Below, piece by piece: positions 13,331 through 26,048 of a stretch of DNA of 34,567 nucleotides. The stretch's first letter is position 1. Every line of letters begins with the position of its first letter. This DNA is from an uncultured Bacilli bacterium (GTDB lineage: Bacteria > Bacillota_I > Bacilli_A > RF39 > UBA660), in contig CANQHJ010000008.1 in NCBI GenBank assembly GCA_947623665.1, positions 1 through 34,567 of the forward strand. The letters are read 5' to 3'. Both the position numbers and the translations under genes were made by a program. Under the pieces are notes generated by a model that saw nothing but the letters and a program-made list of their open reading frames with translations, was not told the origin of the DNA and ran no database searches.

Positions 13331-13340
13331 CCTATTGTCT
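13325..13340 (-). terminator. Weak terminator of the R-M operon
   Basis: agacaa-ccta-ttgtct hairpin, T-rich on the minus strand, next to the dpnII stop at 13332. Confidence 0.5.
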
Positions 13341-14195
13341 AATTACTTTTTCTAAAACTCCATTTTCAAGATCACTAATATTATACATAGTATCTAATTC
13401 ATTAAATGTTTCTTCCAAATTCTTTCTAGCATTTTTCCAACCTATACCATCAGTAAACCATATAAAAGTTACACCATCAACATTTTTAGCCTCTTGTGCT
13501 AACATTTTATAGCTTCTAGCAGTCTCGTTTAATTTAGAACCACCACTAGAATAAAAATTAGTTTCTATTACATAAACCTGTTTATCTGTTTTTATTACAA
13601 AATCAAACCTTTTAGTAGATGTATTATTTCCTGACATAGCACTCAAATCAAGATTCCACTTTTTTTCTATATCTTTTAAATACATCTCTTTAAAATAATT
13701 AATATCTTTTTTATAACCTGCTTTAATTATATATGACTCAACCAAATTTTCCATAAGATGTCCACCACGATTTTTTCTACCATTTGAATCAAGACCTACT
13801 TCAATCCCCAAAACATAATCATATAGATTATTTATAATATGATTTTGTAACAGATCAAATAATCCACTTTCTTTCATAAATCTAATATAATCATTCATAG
13901 AATATACTATTTTATCAAATTTAAATAAATATTCATTTATTTCATCTTTTATAAATATTTCTCTCGAGCGCACCGCAAGCAATAATGGTATGCATTCTAA
14001 TGTTTCAGGATATTTTATAACAATATTTTTAAACTCTTCTTCTATATTATTACTTCCAACTAAAGAATTCAAAATATTAAGTTCAACTTTTACTTTATCA
14101 ATATTTTTATATATTTTTTCAAAATCAACATAATATGTATAATCTGATATACTAGTTTTAAATTTACTAAGCCATTTATTAAAATCTCTATTCAC
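13332..14195 (-). CDS. dpnII: DpnII/MboI-family type II restriction endonuclease (predicted GATC)
   Basis: GLDSNGRKNRGGHLMENLVESYI, ETNFYSSGGSKLNETARSYKMLA, IWFTDGIGWKNARKNLEETF. Confidence 0.92.
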   Translation of the reverse strand: MNRDFNKWLSKFKTSISDYTYYVDFEKIYKNIDKVKVELNILNSLVGSNNIEEEFKNIVIKYPETLECIPLLLAVRSREIFIKDEINEYLFKFDKIVYSMNDYIRFMKESGLFDLLQNHIINNLYDYVLGIEVGLDSNGRKNRGGHLMENLVESYIIKAGYKKDINYFKEMYLKDIEKKWNLDLSAMSGNNTSTKRFDFVIKTDKQVYVIETNFYSSGGSKLNETARSYKMLAQEAKNVDGVTFIWFTDGIGWKNARKNLEETFNELDTMYNISDLENGVLEKVIRQ

Positions 14196-14738
14196 TTAAA
14201 ATCTACCTCCAAAGCCTGATGCCGACATTATTGCAAAAATATCCAATTCATCTTCCAAAAGAGAATCTAATACTTTTCCAAACATATATGCATCCTTTCT
14301 ATTGGTTTTTTCTTGAGTCATCAACAATACCATCAATACAGTTAAAAATTCAACATCGTATTCTCCATAATTACTAATTTTCCTATATTTTGATACATCA
14401 GTTATCTCAACATAATTATCAACTAATGTCACTAACGTCATGTAATCATTACTATTTAATGGCTTACAATCCTGCCATTCCTTTCGTATTTCCTTAATAA
14501 AACTTCTCGTTAACTCTCTTTCGGCTTGCAATTTTAACAATAAATCTACAGCCCAATGAATATGTTTAGGAGTTCTAAGCCTTCGTCCTTTTTCAGAATA
14601 TTTAATTATTATATCATTTTCACTCAAACCACCTTGGAAAACATATATTACATATTTATTATCAAAAATAATATCTATTATTGATGTTAATTCATTTCCT
14701 CTTATTTTATTATTTTTTGTACCCTTAATTACTTTCAT
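14196..14738 (-). CDS. Uncharacterised 180-aa protein inside the R-M operon
   Basis: ORF overlaps dpnA by 14 nt and abuts dpnII with no gap; RRLRTPKHIHWAVDLLLKLQ; no family recognised. Confidence 0.8.
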   Translation of the reverse strand: MKVIKGTKNNKIRGNELTSIIDIIFDNKYVIYVFQGGLSENDIIIKYSEKGRRLRTPKHIHWAVDLLLKLQAERELTRSFIKEIRKEWQDCKPLNSNDYMTLVTLVDNYVEITDVSKYRKISNYGEYDVEFLTVLMVLLMTQEKTNRKDAYMFGKVLDSLLEDELDIFAIMSASGFGGRF

Positions 14739-15510
14739 AAATTCTCCTTTTAGTTAAATCCAAAAATTCTTTTTCTTTTTCAATCCCAATATACTTTCTT
14801 TTTAATTTTTTCGCAACAACTCCTGTTGTTCCACTACCATTAAATGGATCTAATATCAAATCTCCTTCATCAGTAGACGAAAGAATAACTTTTTCAAGTA
14901 TAGCTATTGGCTTTTGTGTTGGATGCTTACCACATTTTTTCTCACTAGGTTTAGTAAGTGAAGTTTCCCAAACATCCTTAGCTTGCTTACCACCATTCAT
15001 CTCTTTCATTAAAGAGTAATTAAATTTATGTTTAGCTTTCTTACTATTTTTCTTAGCCCAAAGAATAGTCTCTGTAGAATGAACAAAATATCTACAGCTC
15101 ATATTAGGAGGTGGATTTAACTTTTTCCAAGTTATATTATTAATTATCTTAAACCCTTCTTGTTCAAGTGCCATACCTATTGAATAAATATTATGCATAG
15201 TGCCACTAATCCATATAGTACCATCATCTTTTAAAACTTTATGACAAAGTCTAATCCATTCTCTATTAAATTTATGTTTTTCTTCTATACTAATAGACTT
15301 ATCCCAATCTCCTTTATTAACAGATACAATTTTTCCACCACTACAAGTTATTCCTCCACTAGACAAAAAGTAAGGAGGATCTGCAAAAATCATATCAACA
15401 CTTTTAGATTCAATATTTTTCAACACTTCAAAAGAGTCACCTTGTATAAGTTTAAAATCTTTATCTTCATAATAACATTCTAAATTTTTCATAATAAATC
15501 CTCCCTCCAC
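14725..15510 (-). CDS. dpnA: DpnA-like DNA adenine methyltransferase
   Basis: ADPPYFLSSGGITCSGGKIVSVNKGDWDKS (DPPY) and DPFNGSGTTGVVAKKLKRKYIGIE. Confidence 0.9.
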   Translation of the reverse strand: MEGGFIMKNLECYYEDKDFKLIQGDSFEVLKNIESKSVDMIFADPPYFLSSGGITCSGGKIVSVNKGDWDKSISIEEKHKFNREWIRLCHKVLKDDGTIWISGTMHNIYSIGMALEQEGFKIINNITWKKLNPPPNMSCRYFVHSTETILWAKKNSKKAKHKFNYSLMKEMNGGKQAKDVWETSLTKPSEKKCGKHPTQKPIAILEKVILSSTDEGDLILDPFNGSGTTGVVAKKLKRKYIGIEKEKEFLDLTKRRIYESN

Positions 15511-15543
15511 TTATATTATAATAGTTTTTTTTTAAATTTTTTT

Positions 15544-16389
15544 CTATTTTTCAAAATTTGTAATAATAACTTCTTCTACTTTACCCCTTTTACTTCCATT
15601 TGCATTAATATTTCTTTTTGCTTTAATAACATGTATATTAAAATCTTTATACAACTCATTCACAAGTTTCGTATTATGATTAGAAAGCATCACAAAACAA
15701 CCTTTATTAGACAAATTTCTAAACACTTTGGAAAGCCTAATTTGCTCTTCTTTACCAAATCCATTTTCAGTATAACTATTAAATGTAGTAGTATCAGAAT
15801 CGTATGGAGGATCAAAATAAACAAAATCATTCTTTTTAGCATCTTTTACTGCCTCTTCAAAATCTACTGAAAGTATTTTTATATTATTATAATTAAGATA
15901 TCCACAAATAACACCTAAGTTCTGTCCTTCATAAGTATTTACTTTTTCTTTTTTTCCAAATGGTACATTAAATTCATTTTTACTATTAACTCTATAAAGT
16001 CCATTAAAACATGCTTTATTTAAATAAATTGTACGTGCTGCCCTTTTATAATCAGAAAGCCTATTAAATCTATTTTTATCTCTGTCTAGATCTCTAATTT
16101 TATAATAATATTCTTCACAGTGTTCTCTTTCATGCTTATTTAATTCATGACACATCAAATCAAACTTTTTATCATCTTTAATGCACATATAAACATTCAT
16201 AAGTTCTTTATTAGAATCATTTATAACCGCATTTTTAGGAGATAATTCAAATAGTAATGCTCCTCCACCTACAAATGGTTCATAATAAGCATTAAATTCA
16301 TCTGGAACATATTGTTTTAATTTATCTATTATTTGTCTTTTTCCACCAGCCCATTTTACAAATGGTTTTCCCTTAATCATTGTTCTCAC
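15544..16389 (-). CDS. dpnM: DpnM-like Dam DNA adenine methyltransferase
   Basis: KPFVKWAGGKRQIIDKL, YYEPFVGGGALLFEL, FVYFDPPYDSDT. Confidence 0.92.
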   Translation of the reverse strand: MRTMIKGKPFVKWAGGKRQIIDKLKQYVPDEFNAYYEPFVGGGALLFELSPKNAVINDSNKELMNVYMCIKDDKKFDLMCHELNKHEREHCEEYYYKIRDLDRDKNRFNRLSDYKRAARTIYLNKACFNGLYRVNSKNEFNVPFGKKEKVNTYEGQNLGVICGYLNYNNIKILSVDFEEAVKDAKKNDFVYFDPPYDSDTTTFNSYTENGFGKEEQIRLSKVFRNLSNKGCFVMLSNHNTKLVNELYKDFNIHVIKAKRNINANGSKRGKVEEVIITNFEK

Positions 16390-20078: not shown

Positions 20079-21077
20079 TTAATCTTTATAATACATCTGA
20101 TTACTACTATTAGGTTTATCTGGAATAGTTAATTTAACTAAACCTTGTTCTATAGCAGGATGTAAATACTTATTTCTTAAAGTATCTTTTGACTTAATAT
20201 TTAACTTATCCATTATTTCATTAGCACTAAGTGGAATATTCTTTTCTAAACAATCTAACAATTTATTTATATTAATTGTCTCTTGATTTATTGGCTCAAT
20301 AGGAACTTTCAAAACCTCTTCAATTGTCTCATCTATCATTTTAAGCATAAACTCTATAAATTCAGTAGAATCCCCTTTACTATTACAATTAGCAATAGCC
20401 CTATAATAATCATCTTGATATTTATGAATTTGAGATTCTATCGGTAAATATAAGAAAATATCTTTCCAATTATAAAGTAAAATATTTTGCCATAACCTTA
20501 CTGTTCTACCATTACCATCAGAAAAAGGATGAATAAAAACAAATTCATAATGAAACACAGTTGATAATATTAAAGGATGTATTTTATCTTTATTTTCTCT
20601 CATCCAACTAAATAATTGCCTCATCAAATCATCCACTAACTTAGGCAAAGGACACATAAAAATACATTTATCGTTATCAAAAACACCCTCGTTACCACTT
20701 CTAAATTTTCCTGCTTCTTCAACAGTTAAAAAAGTCATAACACCATGTACCTTTTTTAAATCTCTAATAGAATATGGATTAACTTCCATTATCATATCAT
20801 AAGCCTTATAAGCATTCTTAACTTCTTGTATATCTTTTTTAGATCCCATTACTAATTTTCCATCAATAACATCTTTAACTTGTTCTAATGTTAAATCATT
20901 ATTTTCTATTGCCAGTGATGAATGAATAGAATTAATTTTAGTTTGTTTCATGAAATGTGGTTTTTTATTAAAATTAGAAAAATTATCTAACTTAGTAACT
21001 TTTTCAGAAATTTCAGCCACTCTCAATAACATTTCTTGTGTTATTTCAAATGGTGGAAAATACTTATCTTTTTTCAT
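20079..21077 (-). CDS. Fic-domain protein with N-terminal inhibitory motif and C-terminal winged helix
   Basis: HPFSDGNGRTVR (HxFx[D/E]GNGRxxR); SLAIEN fits [S/T]xxxE[G/N]; start trimmed to MKKDKYF after AAAGGTGAG. Confidence 0.9.
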   Translation of the reverse strand: MKKDKYFPPFEITQEMLLRVAEISEKVTKLDNFSNFNKKPHFMKQTKINSIHSSLAIENNDLTLEQVKDVIDGKLVMGSKKDIQEVKNAYKAYDMIMEVNPYSIRDLKKVHGVMTFLTVEEAGKFRSGNEGVFDNDKCIFMCPLPKLVDDLMRQLFSWMRENKDKIHPLILSTVFHYEFVFIHPFSDGNGRTVRLWQNILLYNWKDIFLYLPIESQIHKYQDDYYRAIANCNSKGDSTEFIEFMLKMIDETIEEVLKVPIEPINQETININKLLDCLEKNIPLSANEIMDKLNIKSKDTLRNKYLHPAIEQGLVKLTIPDKPNSSNQMYYKD

Positions 21078-21169
21078 AAAACTCACCTTTTTCTCTACAT
21101 ATATTATACTACTAATAGTAATTTTATTCAATACGGCTTGCATAAAACTTACCTAATTTAATAACAGAA

Positions 21170-21191
21170 AAAGCAGAAATAAATCTGCTTT
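21170..21191 (-). terminator. Terminator of the TetR operon
   Basis: aaagcaga / tctgcttt perfect 8-bp stem, T-run on the minus strand. Confidence 0.7.
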
Positions 21192-21206
21192 CCTTTTATT
21201 ATAAAT

Positions 21207-22013
21207 TTAATTATTACTATTCTGTTGAACTGCCGCAATTAACTCTAAAACCCTATAAATGAATTCTAGTAATGCTATAACCATATTGTTTACATATTCT
21301 ATATTATATAGTTTAAATAATTCTTTTAGCATTTCCAATTCTTCATCAGTTGCCATATCATTATTCTTTAAAATTTCATATGCTCTATTTTGAGCTTTAA
21401 TTTCAGTCTTTAATACTTTTAAAGACATAACAAACGCTATTAAATAAAGTAATAATCCTAAAACTGTACAAATAATAGTAAATGTTGCTGTTCCACTTCT
21501 TAAAACTAAAAAGTCTAAAATTATACCTATAATAACTAAAGGAATAAATAAAAGTGGTCCAAAATAAATAAATGGTGTTAACCTAATTCTAGTTTTCATA
21601 TCTGGATCTTTTTCTTTATCTAATATTGCAAGAGCTGACTTTTGTGAAGCCATTGCAAGAGATGCAACAGAGTTTTTCTTCCAAGTAAGTCTTCTCAATC
21701 TAACTTTTTTAAAGAAATGACTATAACTATTACCAAAAAGAATTGACCCACTACATTTAACTTTAATTTTTTCAAGTCCATTATCATCAAGTATTTTTCT
21801 TGCTATATTTTCTCCAGTCATATCTATATTATTTTTCTTTTTATTATATTTATGATATTTAATTGCTAAATATATTTGCACACACAATGCAAAAACAGAT
21901 ACGATTAAAATCAATACTGCAACAATCATCATTGAACAAATAACAACATCTGATACATTACTTAAACTAACATCATATGATGCCTCTAATATTTTTCTAA
22001 ATTCCTCTACCAT
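21207..22013 (-). CDS. YugP-like membrane zinc-metallopeptidase homolog lacking HEXXH (predicted pseudoprotease)
   Basis: MTGENIARKILDDNGLEKIKV...NSVASLAMASQKSALAI...LKTEIKAQNRAYEIL...EYVNNMVIALLEFIYRVLEL matches the YugP-family layout with HEVGH replaced by QKSAL. Confidence 0.7.
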   Translation of the reverse strand: MVEEFRKILEASYDVSLSNVSDVVICSMMIVAVLILIVSVFALCVQIYLAIKYHKYNKKKNNIDMTGENIARKILDDNGLEKIKVKCSGSILFGNSYSHFFKKVRLRRLTWKKNSVASLAMASQKSALAILDKEKDPDMKTRIRLTPFIYFGPLLFIPLVIIGIILDFLVLRSGTATFTIICTVLGLLLYLIAFVMSLKVLKTEIKAQNRAYEILKNNDMATDEELEMLKELFKLYNIEYVNNMVIALLEFIYRVLELIAAVQQNSNN

Positions 22014-22065
22014 TTTACTACCTCTTTTTAAATATGTTTAAAAACAAATTTTTACTTGCTTTATT

Positions 22066-22257
22066 TTATTTTTTATTATTTTTATTTCTAATTCTTATAT
22101 ATTCTACAATTGCAAAAGCAACCCAAATAATTCCATCCCATAAAATAGAACTATTTTTTTGATTGCAAGCAAATTCTACAAAAAACCAAATTGCTGCACA
22201 TAATTGCCATAATACTATTTCATATTTCTCACAAAATTCATTAAATTTGTCCATCAC
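22066..22257 (-). CDS. Small (63-aa) two-TM protein
   Basis: LWQLCAAIWFFVEFACN...ILWDGIIWVAFAIVEYIRIRNKNNKK; lies between TetR and the YugP-like gene. Confidence 0.65.
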   Translation of the reverse strand: MMDKFNEFCEKYEIVLWQLCAAIWFFVEFACNQKNSSILWDGIIWVAFAIVEYIRIRNKNNKK

Positions 22258-22306
22258 TCTTTACTCCTTCCTTTATATTTTATAGTTAGTATAGGATAAT
22301 TCAGTT

Positions 22307-22873
22307 TTATTTATTTTCTAGACTCTTCATACTATTTATAAGTATATCTATCGATAAATCAAAGCTTTCCTTTATCGATAATGAATCTCCAAAAGCATCA
22401 TTATCTTCTAGTAAAGCAAATCCTTCTAAAAAACTTCTCATTAATCTAATACAATGTTTCACATTTTTTTTACTAATATTTAATGGTTCTACTATTTTAA
22501 ATATAACTTCATGTAATTTTTTTGTAGCTTCAAGACTAACTTCATTATCATACATGTTATACCACAACATTGCACTAAATATACCTTTATTATTAGAAAC
22601 ATAATCATAAAAAGCATAACACATATTTCTTATAGAATCATAACCAACAACGCCTACAGTTGACTCTATCATTTTACTTCCTACACTCATCCATCCATAA
22701 ATCATAATCTTTTCTCTGATATCACTTAAACTAGAAAAATGATTATATAAAGATGGAGATTTTATACCTAACTGTGATGCAATCATTTTCAAAGATAAAT
22801 TATCAAGTCCTACTTTATTTGCAAGCATTGCAGAAACTTCAATAATATCATCATCACTAATGCGTTTTTTCAA
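22307..22873 (-). CDS. TetR/AcrR-family regulator
   Basis: N-terminal HTH VGLDNLSLKMIASQLGIKSPSLYNHFSSLSDIREKIM. Confidence 0.88.
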   Translation of the reverse strand: MKKRISDDDIIEVSAMLANKVGLDNLSLKMIASQLGIKSPSLYNHFSSLSDIREKIMIYGWMSVGSKMIESTVGVVGYDSIRNMCYAFYDYVSNNKGIFSAMLWYNMYDNEVSLEATKKLHEVIFKIVEPLNISKKNVKHCIRLMRSFLEGFALLEDNDAFGDSLSIKESFDLSIDILINSMKSLENK

Positions 22874-22903
22874 GCAATCTCCCTCCTAACTAATTACATT
22901 AAT

Positions 22904-22932
22904 ATTATAACTAATCAGATTAGTTATGTCAA
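22904..22932 (-). promoter_or_regulatory. Consensus promoter with embedded operator of the TetR operon
   Basis: Minus strand TTGACA-N17-TATAAT; perfect palindrome ATAACTAATC-A-GATTAGTTAT at 22907-22927; extra half-site taactaat at 22887-22894. Confidence 0.88.
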
Positions 22933-22967: not shown

Positions 22968-24026
22968 TTATCTATTAATTTTTTCAAATTCTTTACTTAA
23001 AACTTTAATAATACCATCTTGTTTTATATTCATTCCTGTAAGTAAACTAGCATCTTTACATCTATAATGTAATCTATTAAATTTACCAAGCTCTTCTATA
23101 TTACAATTAGTTAAATAAACACCCATCATTTTACCATACGCATATAAAATCTCATGAAATGGATTAATTTTAAAACTCGAAACATCATCTTTATGTTCAA
23201 AAGATAAATATGCATTTTTCATTCTATAAGATAGCGTTCTAAGAAAGCTATATTTAAAATACTTAGACATATCAGGTTCAATATTATTATTTAACATAAA
23301 ATCATACATAGAATTTTGAAGCATATGTCCAGATGCTTCAACGAAAGCCGAAGTAGAAATATAAACTGTTTTATCAAATGAATTTAAATACATTGCATCT
23401 TCAATATGCCCTAATTCATGTGCAACACTACAACATTTTTTATAATTATTAAAGTAATTATTATCAAGTAAAATATAATCATTATTACCACAAAAATCAA
23501 AATAGGTAATACCCTTATAATCATCTACTACATTACCATTTAATATTCTTCCTTCCATCAACATTCTATTAAATGTATCTATATCCTTTACATAAATACT
23601 ATGTTTTAAAAAGTCATTTATAAAATCTTTAGAATCTTCTTCTGAAATATCTCTATAAAATTTTTCTTTTACATTACATCTATCTAAATTATAATCTAAA
23701 TATTCTATAATTTTAGGAAATTCTTCTAAAGTAAATTTCTCTAAAGATAAAAAGTTATAAATAATAATATCATGTAAAAAATCATTATATTTTATTGCAC
23801 TATTATAAAAGTTTGGTCTTAGTACTTGAAATAATCTTTCATCAAATATATTTTCACCAGTAATAGATTTATGCAAATCATCAAATCCACATAAACTAAG
23901 ATAAGCCCTCTCAACATCTTCTCCTCTATAAAGTTTTGCTTCATAACTTGCCATTAAATACTCTAATTTTTCTAAGGCTTCTTTACTATACATACTTAAT
24001 ACACCTTTACTTTCTAACTTTTTCAA
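22968..24026 (-). CDS. Predicted gluzincin-type metallopeptidase, paralog 1
   Basis: CSVAHELGHIEDAM...AFVEASGHMLQN (HExGH + downstream E); likely start MYSKEAL near 23993. Confidence 0.6.
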   Translation of the reverse strand: MKKLESKGVLSMYSKEALEKLEYLMASYEAKLYRGEDVERAYLSLCGFDDLHKSITGENIFDERLFQVLRPNFYNSAIKYNDFLHDIIIYNFLSLEKFTLEEFPKIIEYLDYNLDRCNVKEKFYRDISEEDSKDFINDFLKHSIYVKDIDTFNRMLMEGRILNGNVVDDYKGITYFDFCGNNDYILLDNNYFNNYKKCCSVAHELGHIEDAMYLNSFDKTVYISTSAFVEASGHMLQNSMYDFMLNNNIEPDMSKYFKYSFLRTLSYRMKNAYLSFEHKDDVSSFKINPFHEILYAYGKMMGVYLTNCNIEELGKFNRLHYRCKDASLLTGMNIKQDGIIKVLSKEFEKINR

Positions 24027-25032
24027 TTTCCTTAGACAATACCTTTATCATTTTATCTTTATTAAAATCTATTTGCTTAAATAATCCTATATTAAAATTA
24101 TCATAATGAAGTCTTCTAAATAATTCATACTCTTCTTTACTACAATTATTTAAATAAAAACCTAACATCATACCACAAGAATAAACAACTTCTTGAACTG
24201 GGTTAATTTCTTCTCCACTAATATTAGAAAAATATCTAATACTATTCATAGAATGATTAAGTAAACAACTAATTGCATTACTCTTTAAAAGTTGTCCTGT
24301 ATCTTTAGAAATACCTTCTTCTATCAAGAAATCATGCATTAAAAATTCCCAACTATGAGAAAAGCTTTCTTTATAAGGAGACAAATCTAAAAATCTAGAT
24401 TTAACTGGTAAATCAATTCCTAACAATTCATCTACATGTCCTGACTCATGAACAATAGAACAACCCTTCTGATAATTATTACTATGTTCTCCAATACATA
24501 CATAATCATTATTTTTAGAATAACTATCAAAAAAAGTAATTCCAGAAAAACCATTTAATCTACCATCCATTATTCTTTTTTCTCTACATAACCTATCAAA
24601 TATATCTTTATTACCTATTTTAGGATTATATCTAAAAAAATCATTAACCAAAACTCTAACATATTTATTTTCTATATCCTTAGTTTGTTTTTCTTCTAAA
24701 TTATCAAAATTTCTAGCAATAAACTCACAAACAGATAAAACATCATTTAAATAAAATTCTCTAAAACTATCTATATTATTATTTAATATTATATTATTTT
24801 CTAAACTTATATTATTAATATGTTCTGCAAAACTCATATGTTTAAAAACAAAATCATCATAATCAAACATATACCCAAAGCCACAAGAATTATGCATCTC
24901 ATCAAGTCCTAAAAGTGAGAACATAAGTCTATCAGAATATTCTCCATTATAAAGTTTTTCCTTATAATTTAATATACTACTTTCTAATTTTTTTAAAAAT
25001 TCTTTTTCATATTCAAAATTCATATAAATCAC
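24007..25032 (-). CDS. Predicted gluzincin-type metallopeptidase, paralog 2
   Basis: CSIVHESGHVDELLG...YKESFSHSWEFLMHDFL; aligns with paralogs 1 and 3. Confidence 0.6.
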   Translation of the reverse strand: MIYMNFEYEKEFLKKLESSILNYKEKLYNGEYSDRLMFSLLGLDEMHNSCGFGYMFDYDDFVFKHMSFAEHINNISLENNIILNNNIDSFREFYLNDVLSVCEFIARNFDNLEEKQTKDIENKYVRVLVNDFFRYNPKIGNKDIFDRLCREKRIMDGRLNGFSGITFFDSYSKNNDYVCIGEHSNNYQKGCSIVHESGHVDELLGIDLPVKSRFLDLSPYKESFSHSWEFLMHDFLIEEGISKDTGQLLKSNAISCLLNHSMNSIRYFSNISGEEINPVQEVVYSCGMMLGFYLNNCSKEEYELFRRLHYDNFNIGLFKQIDFNKDKMIKVLSKEIEKVRK

Positions 25033-26048
25033 CTATCTAACTTTCGTATTTCTTTTTTTAAACTCTTAACAAGTTTTTCTTTATTAATATCCATTTCTTC
25101 AAATAATTTGAAATCGTATACACTACGATGAAGTACATCAAACTTTAAGAAATTCTTCTCATCACTATTACAAAAATACAAAGCAAGCAAAATCCCATAA
25201 CTATAAAGTACAGCTTCTTTCATTTCCTCATATTTTCCTTCATTTAAAAGTTTTAAATAATCATTTGAAAAATCATACAAATCTTTTAACAATTCTATCT
25301 TATTAGAAATAGCCTCTTCTTTAATAATATTTTTTCTTATCAAAAAATCATAAGCTTTATTTTCAAAATAATGTGATTCTACTTCACTAAATAAAGATAA
25401 CATATCATATTCTAATTTCAAATCACCATCCATTTCTAATTCTTCATAAAAATGCCCATCTTCATGAAAAAAATCAAAAGCATTTTCATTATTATCACCA
25501 TTACTATCAATATAAATAAAATCATTACCTCTAATATAATCAGATAAAGTTTCAGAACAGCCAAAATATACTGCATCATGTCCTGTTATAATCTTTAAAT
25601 CTTTAACCATTTTATTCAAATGATTTTTATCAATATGCATCTCTTCTTCACTAAACTCTTTTATAATATCAATCCATTGTTCTCTAGAAAGTTCATCATT
25701 TAAAACAACTTCTCTATTTAGCAAATCAGAATAATCATCTAAAACTTCTAAAATAGCAGGAAAAACTTCTAAAGAAAACTCATCTAAAGATTTAATATTT
25801 TCAATATAATTACCTCTATATTTATCACTTTCTCTCATAACCATTCTATAAATTATAGGACTCTTATTTTTAAGTATAATATCATTAAATAATTCATAAC
25901 CAGTAATATAACTATAAATATCATTTAAATTTGTCAAAGACAAATAAGCCTTATAAGTATCTTGATTCCTATAAAGCTTATTTTCATATAAATATATTAA
26001 AAATTTTATTCTATCAAAAACATTTTTTCTATACACAACCTTACCCAC
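25029..26048 (-). CDS. Predicted gluzincin-type metallopeptidase, paralog 3 (most divergent)
   Basis: FDFFHEDGHFYEELEMDG...FSEVESHYFENKAYDFL; ATGA overlap with paralog 2. Confidence 0.55.
   Translation of the reverse strand: MGKVVYRKNVFDRIKFLIYLYENKLYRNQDTYKAYLSLTNLNDIYSYITGYELFNDIILKNKSPIIYRMVMRESDKYRGNYIENIKSLDEFSLEVFPAILEVLDDYSDLLNREVVLNDELSREQWIDIIKEFSEEEMHIDKNHLNKMVKDLKIITGHDAVYFGCSETLSDYIRGNDFIYIDSNGDNNENAFDFFHEDGHFYEELEMDGDLKLEYDMLSLFSEVESHYFENKAYDFLIRKNIIKEEAISNKIELLKDLYDFSNDYLKLLNEGKYEEMKEAVLYSYGILLALYFCNSDEKNFLKFDVLHRSVYDFKLFEEMDINKEKLVKSLKKEIRKLDR

Follow-up and report, generated by a model that had tools for sequence, protein, structure and literature searches.

In B. subtilis, YugP is a putative inner-spore-membrane metalloprotease, and spores lacking both yugP and htrC are slightly delayed in germination (PMC13393411). 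Its family, PF04298, has been called uncharacterised (PMC3650047). Metallopeptidase relatives without activity have been reviewed, with ADAM2, ADAM22 and ADAM23, FtsHi1-5 and Gone early among the examples given (PMC11266112). In that review's account of them HExxH is replaced, often with His changed to Gln (QLLSL in ADAM2), the fold is kept and the role is non-catalytic; the examples that we consulted in its tables belong to M1, M12, M13, M14, M16, M24 and M41, and none of these examples is from PF04298. The protein described here resembles them in its replaced HExxH and retained fold and differs from those covered in that account in that its family is bacterial and membrane-bound and strongly conserves the motif that replaces HExxH. 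Both pseudopeptidases and TetR operons under autoregulation have been described before; of a HExxH-less subfamily of PF04298 we found no description in the open-licence literature searched.

The window, the whole 34,567-nucleotide stretch of DNA that was analysed, carries three same-strand genes in the order TetR, small membrane protein and YugP-like protein, with intergenic gaps of 49 and 52 nt (Table 1). The initial annotation had described this trio as sharing ~50-nt gaps, a single promoter/operator and a single terminator, and all of these are present in the sequence. The TTGACA-17-TATAAT element at 22932..22904 was the sole 12/12 sigma-70-type promoter in a 3-kb scan, where the remaining promoter-like sites all scored below 12/12 and the number observed was that of shuffled sequence (26 vs 25.8). 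Terminators numbered 3 against 0.3 expected, and the hairpin behind pseudo-YugP is also found downstream of pseudo-YugP in a sister species (locus L032).

Table 1. Features of the TetR/pseudo-YugP operon, in coordinates of the window.
Feature	Position	Strand	Details
tetR, TetR/AcrR repressor with TetR_C_33 (WHG) ligand domain	22307..22873	-	188 aa, TTG start; PF00440 5.4e-8, PF13305 1.1e-8
Small two-TM membrane protein	22066..22257	-	62-63 aa, GTG or ATG start; without Pfam family
Pseudo-YugP, PF04298 membrane peptidase fold	21207..22013	-	268 aa; HExxH replaced by QKSAL
Promoter TTGACA-17-TATAAT	22904..22932	-	12/12 consensus
Putative TetR operator	22908..22926	.	perfect palindrome TAACTAATC-t-GATTAGTTA, overlaps spacer and -10 box
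Rho-independent terminator	21168..21193	-	26-nt hairpin, 10-bp stem, T-rich tail

Several neighbors of the operon deserve mention in their own right. Immediately upstream lie three tandem paralogues of ~340-350 aa (22968-24026, 24007-25032 and 25029-26048, all on the minus strand), each with an HExxH motif (HELGH, HESGH and HEDGH); two of the three weakly resemble IrrE/Peptidase_M78, with scores that do not reach the Pfam cut-off, and two ORFs related to them stand upstream of the same operon in L032. A Fic-domain protein, for which the closest PADLOC model is SoFic (E=1.8e-42), is encoded just downstream (20079-21143, minus strand). Farther away, a DpnII-type restriction endonuclease (PF04556, E=5.5e-109) and two adjoining DNA methyltransferase genes make up a DpnII-like restriction-modification cluster (13332-16389, minus strand). 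That the operon itself is a defence system or phage cargo was rejected: PADLOC returned no match for its three proteins, PHROG returned none for pseudo-YugP, and viral, phage and plasmid collections gave only 26-30% matches.

The YugP-like protein matches Zn_peptidase_2 (PF04298) over nearly the full length of the profile (E=2.6e-34, 119.1 bits vs a cut-off of 27, profile positions 3-215 of 218), which upholds the YugP assignment of the initial annotation, and the catalytic motif it had reported as lost is indeed replaced, HExxH having become Q124-K-S-A-L128. All 41 members of a mixed alignment match PF04298 and no other family. A genome scan for pseudo-YugP recovered 38 related loci from uncultured gut Bacillota of rabbit, ruminants and horse, and a class-wide scan found it in 13 of 395 genomes, across seven families. 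HExxH is absent from all 36 aligned relatives and from 10 further rows from other families, a set of ~44 distinct sequences (two of the 10 are apparent duplicates) at 39-94% identity. The motif of the pseudo clade is [QE]Kxx[LF], whereas canonical YugP of the same bacterial family has HEcGH or HEvGH in every row. In a tree with canonical YugP, 27 pseudo rows fall on one side of a 100/100 branch; since this tree is unrooted, it agrees with one origin of the clade but does not prove it. The gene is under purifying selection (dN/dS 0.12-0.24). Local pseudogene decay was rejected, as there is no frameshift, dN/dS is low and the motif loss is subfamily-wide.

AlphaFold2 models of pseudo-YugP and canonical YugP (pLDDT 91.3 and 93.5) have their helices and strands in the same order, with an extra N-terminal helix in pseudo-YugP. 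A fold search with either model found no solved structure at E<=0.001; the minigluzincins jannalysin, selecase and abylysin appeared as weak matches. Pseudo-YugP also shares with YugP the Glu of an ExxA[S/Q] motif: the residue corresponding to the third-ligand-like Glu of canonical PVExxAS is retained as an invariant E204 in the context LKxExKAQ. The two differ in that identity is only ~24-34%, in the absence of HExxH from every subfamily member and in the sequence GNSYSHxFKKxRLRR where canonical YugP has DHYDPRxKVVRLS. With its catalytic residues lost, its fold apparently retained in the predicted model and its sequence under purifying selection, the protein would be classed as a pseudopeptidase.

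Within the pseudo clade, conservation is highest at the surface of the former active site. Site entropy is 0.62 bits in the GNSYSH region and 0.72 in the former-HExxH region vs 1.16 overall, and G94-H99 (GNSYSH), K125, E204, K206, A207 and Q208 are invariant. The low entropy and invariant residues around the former active site argue that this surface was rebuilt and serves some function, and a binding, scaffold or other non-proteolytic role is possible. Alternatively, the rebuilt site (S96/S98/H99, K125, E204, K206 and Q208) could support new non-peptidase chemistry or bind a small ligand or lipid in place of a protein client. We consider this rather unlikely: the conservation of this face and the replacement of the catalytic Glu by Lys (K125) in 37 of 37 rows are unlike neutral decay, but such invariance would fit a protein-binding surface too, and we know of no precedent for new non-peptidase chemistry in the PF04298 fold. 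Conversely, if these residues share a pocket, its conservation would agree with a new enzymatic activity no less than with a binding role, which counts against the binding model favored below. A broader and equally tentative proposal is that the HExxH-less clade constitutes a new membrane family whose rebuilt site (GNSYSH, Lys for Glu, ExKAQ) has its own ligand or chemistry and which, in this genus, a ligand-responsive TetR switch now controls along with a small partner.

A different role was envisioned by the initial annotation, in which the protein could be an inhibitor, decoy or scaffold for the real YugP or for another membrane target. An analogy for action on a catalytic YugP would be the iRhoms, rhomboid pseudoproteases that act in rhomboid-dependent signalling. 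Like them, the protein described here is a pseudoprotease of the membrane, and it is proposed to hold its clients without cleaving them; the protease family of the iRhoms is unrelated to YugP and, for the protein described here, an active paralogue was not found in the window genome. The suggested check for an intact YugP elsewhere in that genome (90.9% complete) returned the pseudo copy as the only PF04298 gene, and no second YugP match was found in the two congeners G001 and G002. A YugP with HExxH, checked in each case, does reside alongside pseudo-YugP in 13 of 38 genomes, as an inhibitor or decoy would need, but the other 25 carriers are without one. Among rabbit-gut genomes, carriers have the catalytic copy somewhat less often than same-family non-carriers (12/23 vs 43/55, Fisher p=0.03), in a rough test whose groups were scored by different searches and in which family membership is unproven for some of the 23. 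Carriers are incomplete metagenome assemblies, and a real YugP could therefore be missing from an assembly. Nonetheless, that no intact copy was found in any of the three genomes of the genus makes inhibition or decoying of the cell's own YugP quite improbable in our judgment.

How is the operon controlled? The regulator matches TetR_N (E=5.4e-8) and TetR_C_33 (E=1.1e-8), both above cut-offs, and tetR has a dN/dS of 0.20-0.30. The palindrome TAACTAATCtGATTAGTTA lies within the promoter spacer and is the genome's only copy at <3 mismatches. Compared with the window, the 29-bp promoter/operator has 1 mismatch in L032 and 3 in L036, two congeners have TetRs 67 and 89% identical to the window's, and the operator is conserved before TetR in three congeners and in twelve other loci looked at. 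The autoregulation claimed at the outset has its expected signature in this palindrome, which sits inside the core promoter and is conserved within the genus; an HTH and a ligand domain in the protein and a conserved operator in its own promoter would place the locus among autoregulated TetR operons.

The same kind of switch is found outside the genus. When 376 genomes of the family were scanned for the 29-bp promoter/operator, 15 of them contained 16 sites with 0-1 mismatch; matches to the reversed pattern, used as a control, were scattered and had up to 3 mismatches, a count not split by mismatch. We looked at 13 extra-genus loci with 0-2 mismatches, and in 12 of them, from ten genera, a TetR starts shortly after the operator site; the six of the twelve that were aligned are 54-65% identical to the window's. 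The gene after TetR encodes a GNAT-YoaP protein (acetyltransferase/YoaP) in all ten loci that reach far enough, representing eight genera, and in five of these ten an ORF begins behind it that we call radical-SAM-like solely for its CxxxCxxC motif. At the thirteenth locus, in G189, the small TM gene follows the operator site without an intact tetR. GNAT-YoaP had no match in the window genome in a single-genome search run without a positive control. Because TetR and operator are shared while the genes that follow them differ, the switch has changed targets: related genera combine a similar promoter/operator and TetR with GNAT-YoaP, in several cases followed by the radical-SAM-like ORF, whereas here the targets are the small two-TM gene and pseudo-YugP. 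Separately, a Priestia megaterium plasmid (L188:2474-3427) encodes a WHG-domain TetR with 33.5% identity, and behind it lies a gene of the YrdB family with a 103-aa product.

The order TetR-small protein-YugP recurs, with the operator, in the sister species (L032/G001). In a third species (L036/G002) TetR and YugP follow a similar operator with no small gene between them and with different flanking genes. The search for conserved clusters that the initial annotation called for thus turned up an arrangement that is not unique to one genome and is limited to one genus; a three-gene system conserved across families was rejected on this ground. In nearly all other relatives pseudo-YugP occurs without TetR or the small gene. 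The palindrome operator is absent before these free-standing genes, most of which have TTGACTAA...TATAAT promoters; near-consensus promoters, mostly starting with TTGACTAA, precede pseudo-YugP in L033, L034, L037, L039-L043, L046-L050, L053 and L069, which suggests strong constitutive expression. Since most pseudo-YugP genes lack a TetR and many have their own near-consensus promoter, induction does not appear to be intrinsic to the role of the protein. No fixed partner gene emerged among 36 loci; ABC ATPases lie nearby in 11 of the 36, a frequency judged, without a formal test, to be about chance.

The small gene also occurs apart from the operon. The encoded protein, annotated initially as a 63-aa two-TM protein, has hydrophobic segments at 12-32 and 36-56 and a length of 62-63 aa, as claimed. 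It has no family in Pfam and forms one of its own, with 10 members aligned (consensus MxKFNxFCEKYE..LWQ..AAIWFFVEY...SLLGDGVFW..FAIxEFIR..KKK). At E<=0.01 it turned up in 13 of the 388 genomes searched in the family, where its neighbors are usually neither TetR nor pseudo-YugP. In G001:C13 and G189:C8 the same operator-bearing promoter stands directly upstream of a lone small gene, and the TetR of the G001 operon may thus also control a second copy that is not linked to it; the window genome also has a second copy (C4), split across two frames. We considered and discarded the idea that the leaders of free-standing small genes contain the remains of a tetR: in L113 promoter, operator and ribosome-site region align, but between them the alignment does not reach significance, which leaves a shared leader only. 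A cyclophilin-like (PF18050), putatively membrane-anchored protein (L123:576-1034, L124:854-1351) is encoded beside the small gene where it stands free in the sister species, as well as beside the split copy in the window genome, and a Fic-like ORF adjoins the free-standing small gene in L123.

With pseudo-YugP free-standing, the small gene found alone elsewhere and TetR and operator driving a different operon in other genera, the case for a dedicated three-gene system is weak. At the extreme, TetR and the small protein could be the module, and pseudo-YugP an ordinary membrane gene captured by their promoter through rearrangement. The small gene is tied to the same operator without pseudo-YugP at two loci, and almost everywhere else pseudo-YugP stands free of TetR, often with a promoter of its own; against such a capture, the third species has kept TetR and pseudo-YugP linked without the intervening small gene and amid other flanking genes. 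We therefore regard an incidental operon as unlikely.

The model we favor, although we put it no higher than evenly balanced, is that of an inducible operon for membrane proteins in which the YugP scaffold has been repurposed, with its own binding or new function, and is not an antagonist of a same-cell YugP. We envision that the WHG-domain TetR represses its own promoter through the palindrome of 19 bp that lies between the -35 box and the -10 box, and that binding of a small molecule to TetR would allow the operon to be transcribed. Derepression would then yield two membrane proteins, the two-TM small protein and a YugP-fold protein without catalytic zinc-site residues, which may act jointly. 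Pseudo-YugP would derive from an old subfamily in which the former active-site face was rebuilt and kept under strong selection, and it would most likely bind a membrane client or ligand through this site as a non-proteolytic adaptor or sensor. In this genus a gene that is free-standing elsewhere would have been placed under a TetR/operator module that serves other genes in related genera.

Pseudo-YugP has dozens of members that form one clade, in which the motif that took the place of HExxH varies less than the remainder of the sequence. As we found no established YugP substrate in the literature, a means of separating the function of the YugP fold from cleavage by the YugP protease is useful. 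The exchange of TetR targets, in turn, offers a route to the inducer, since the genera in which this kind of TetR precedes an acetyltransferase gene could be tested with the same compounds.
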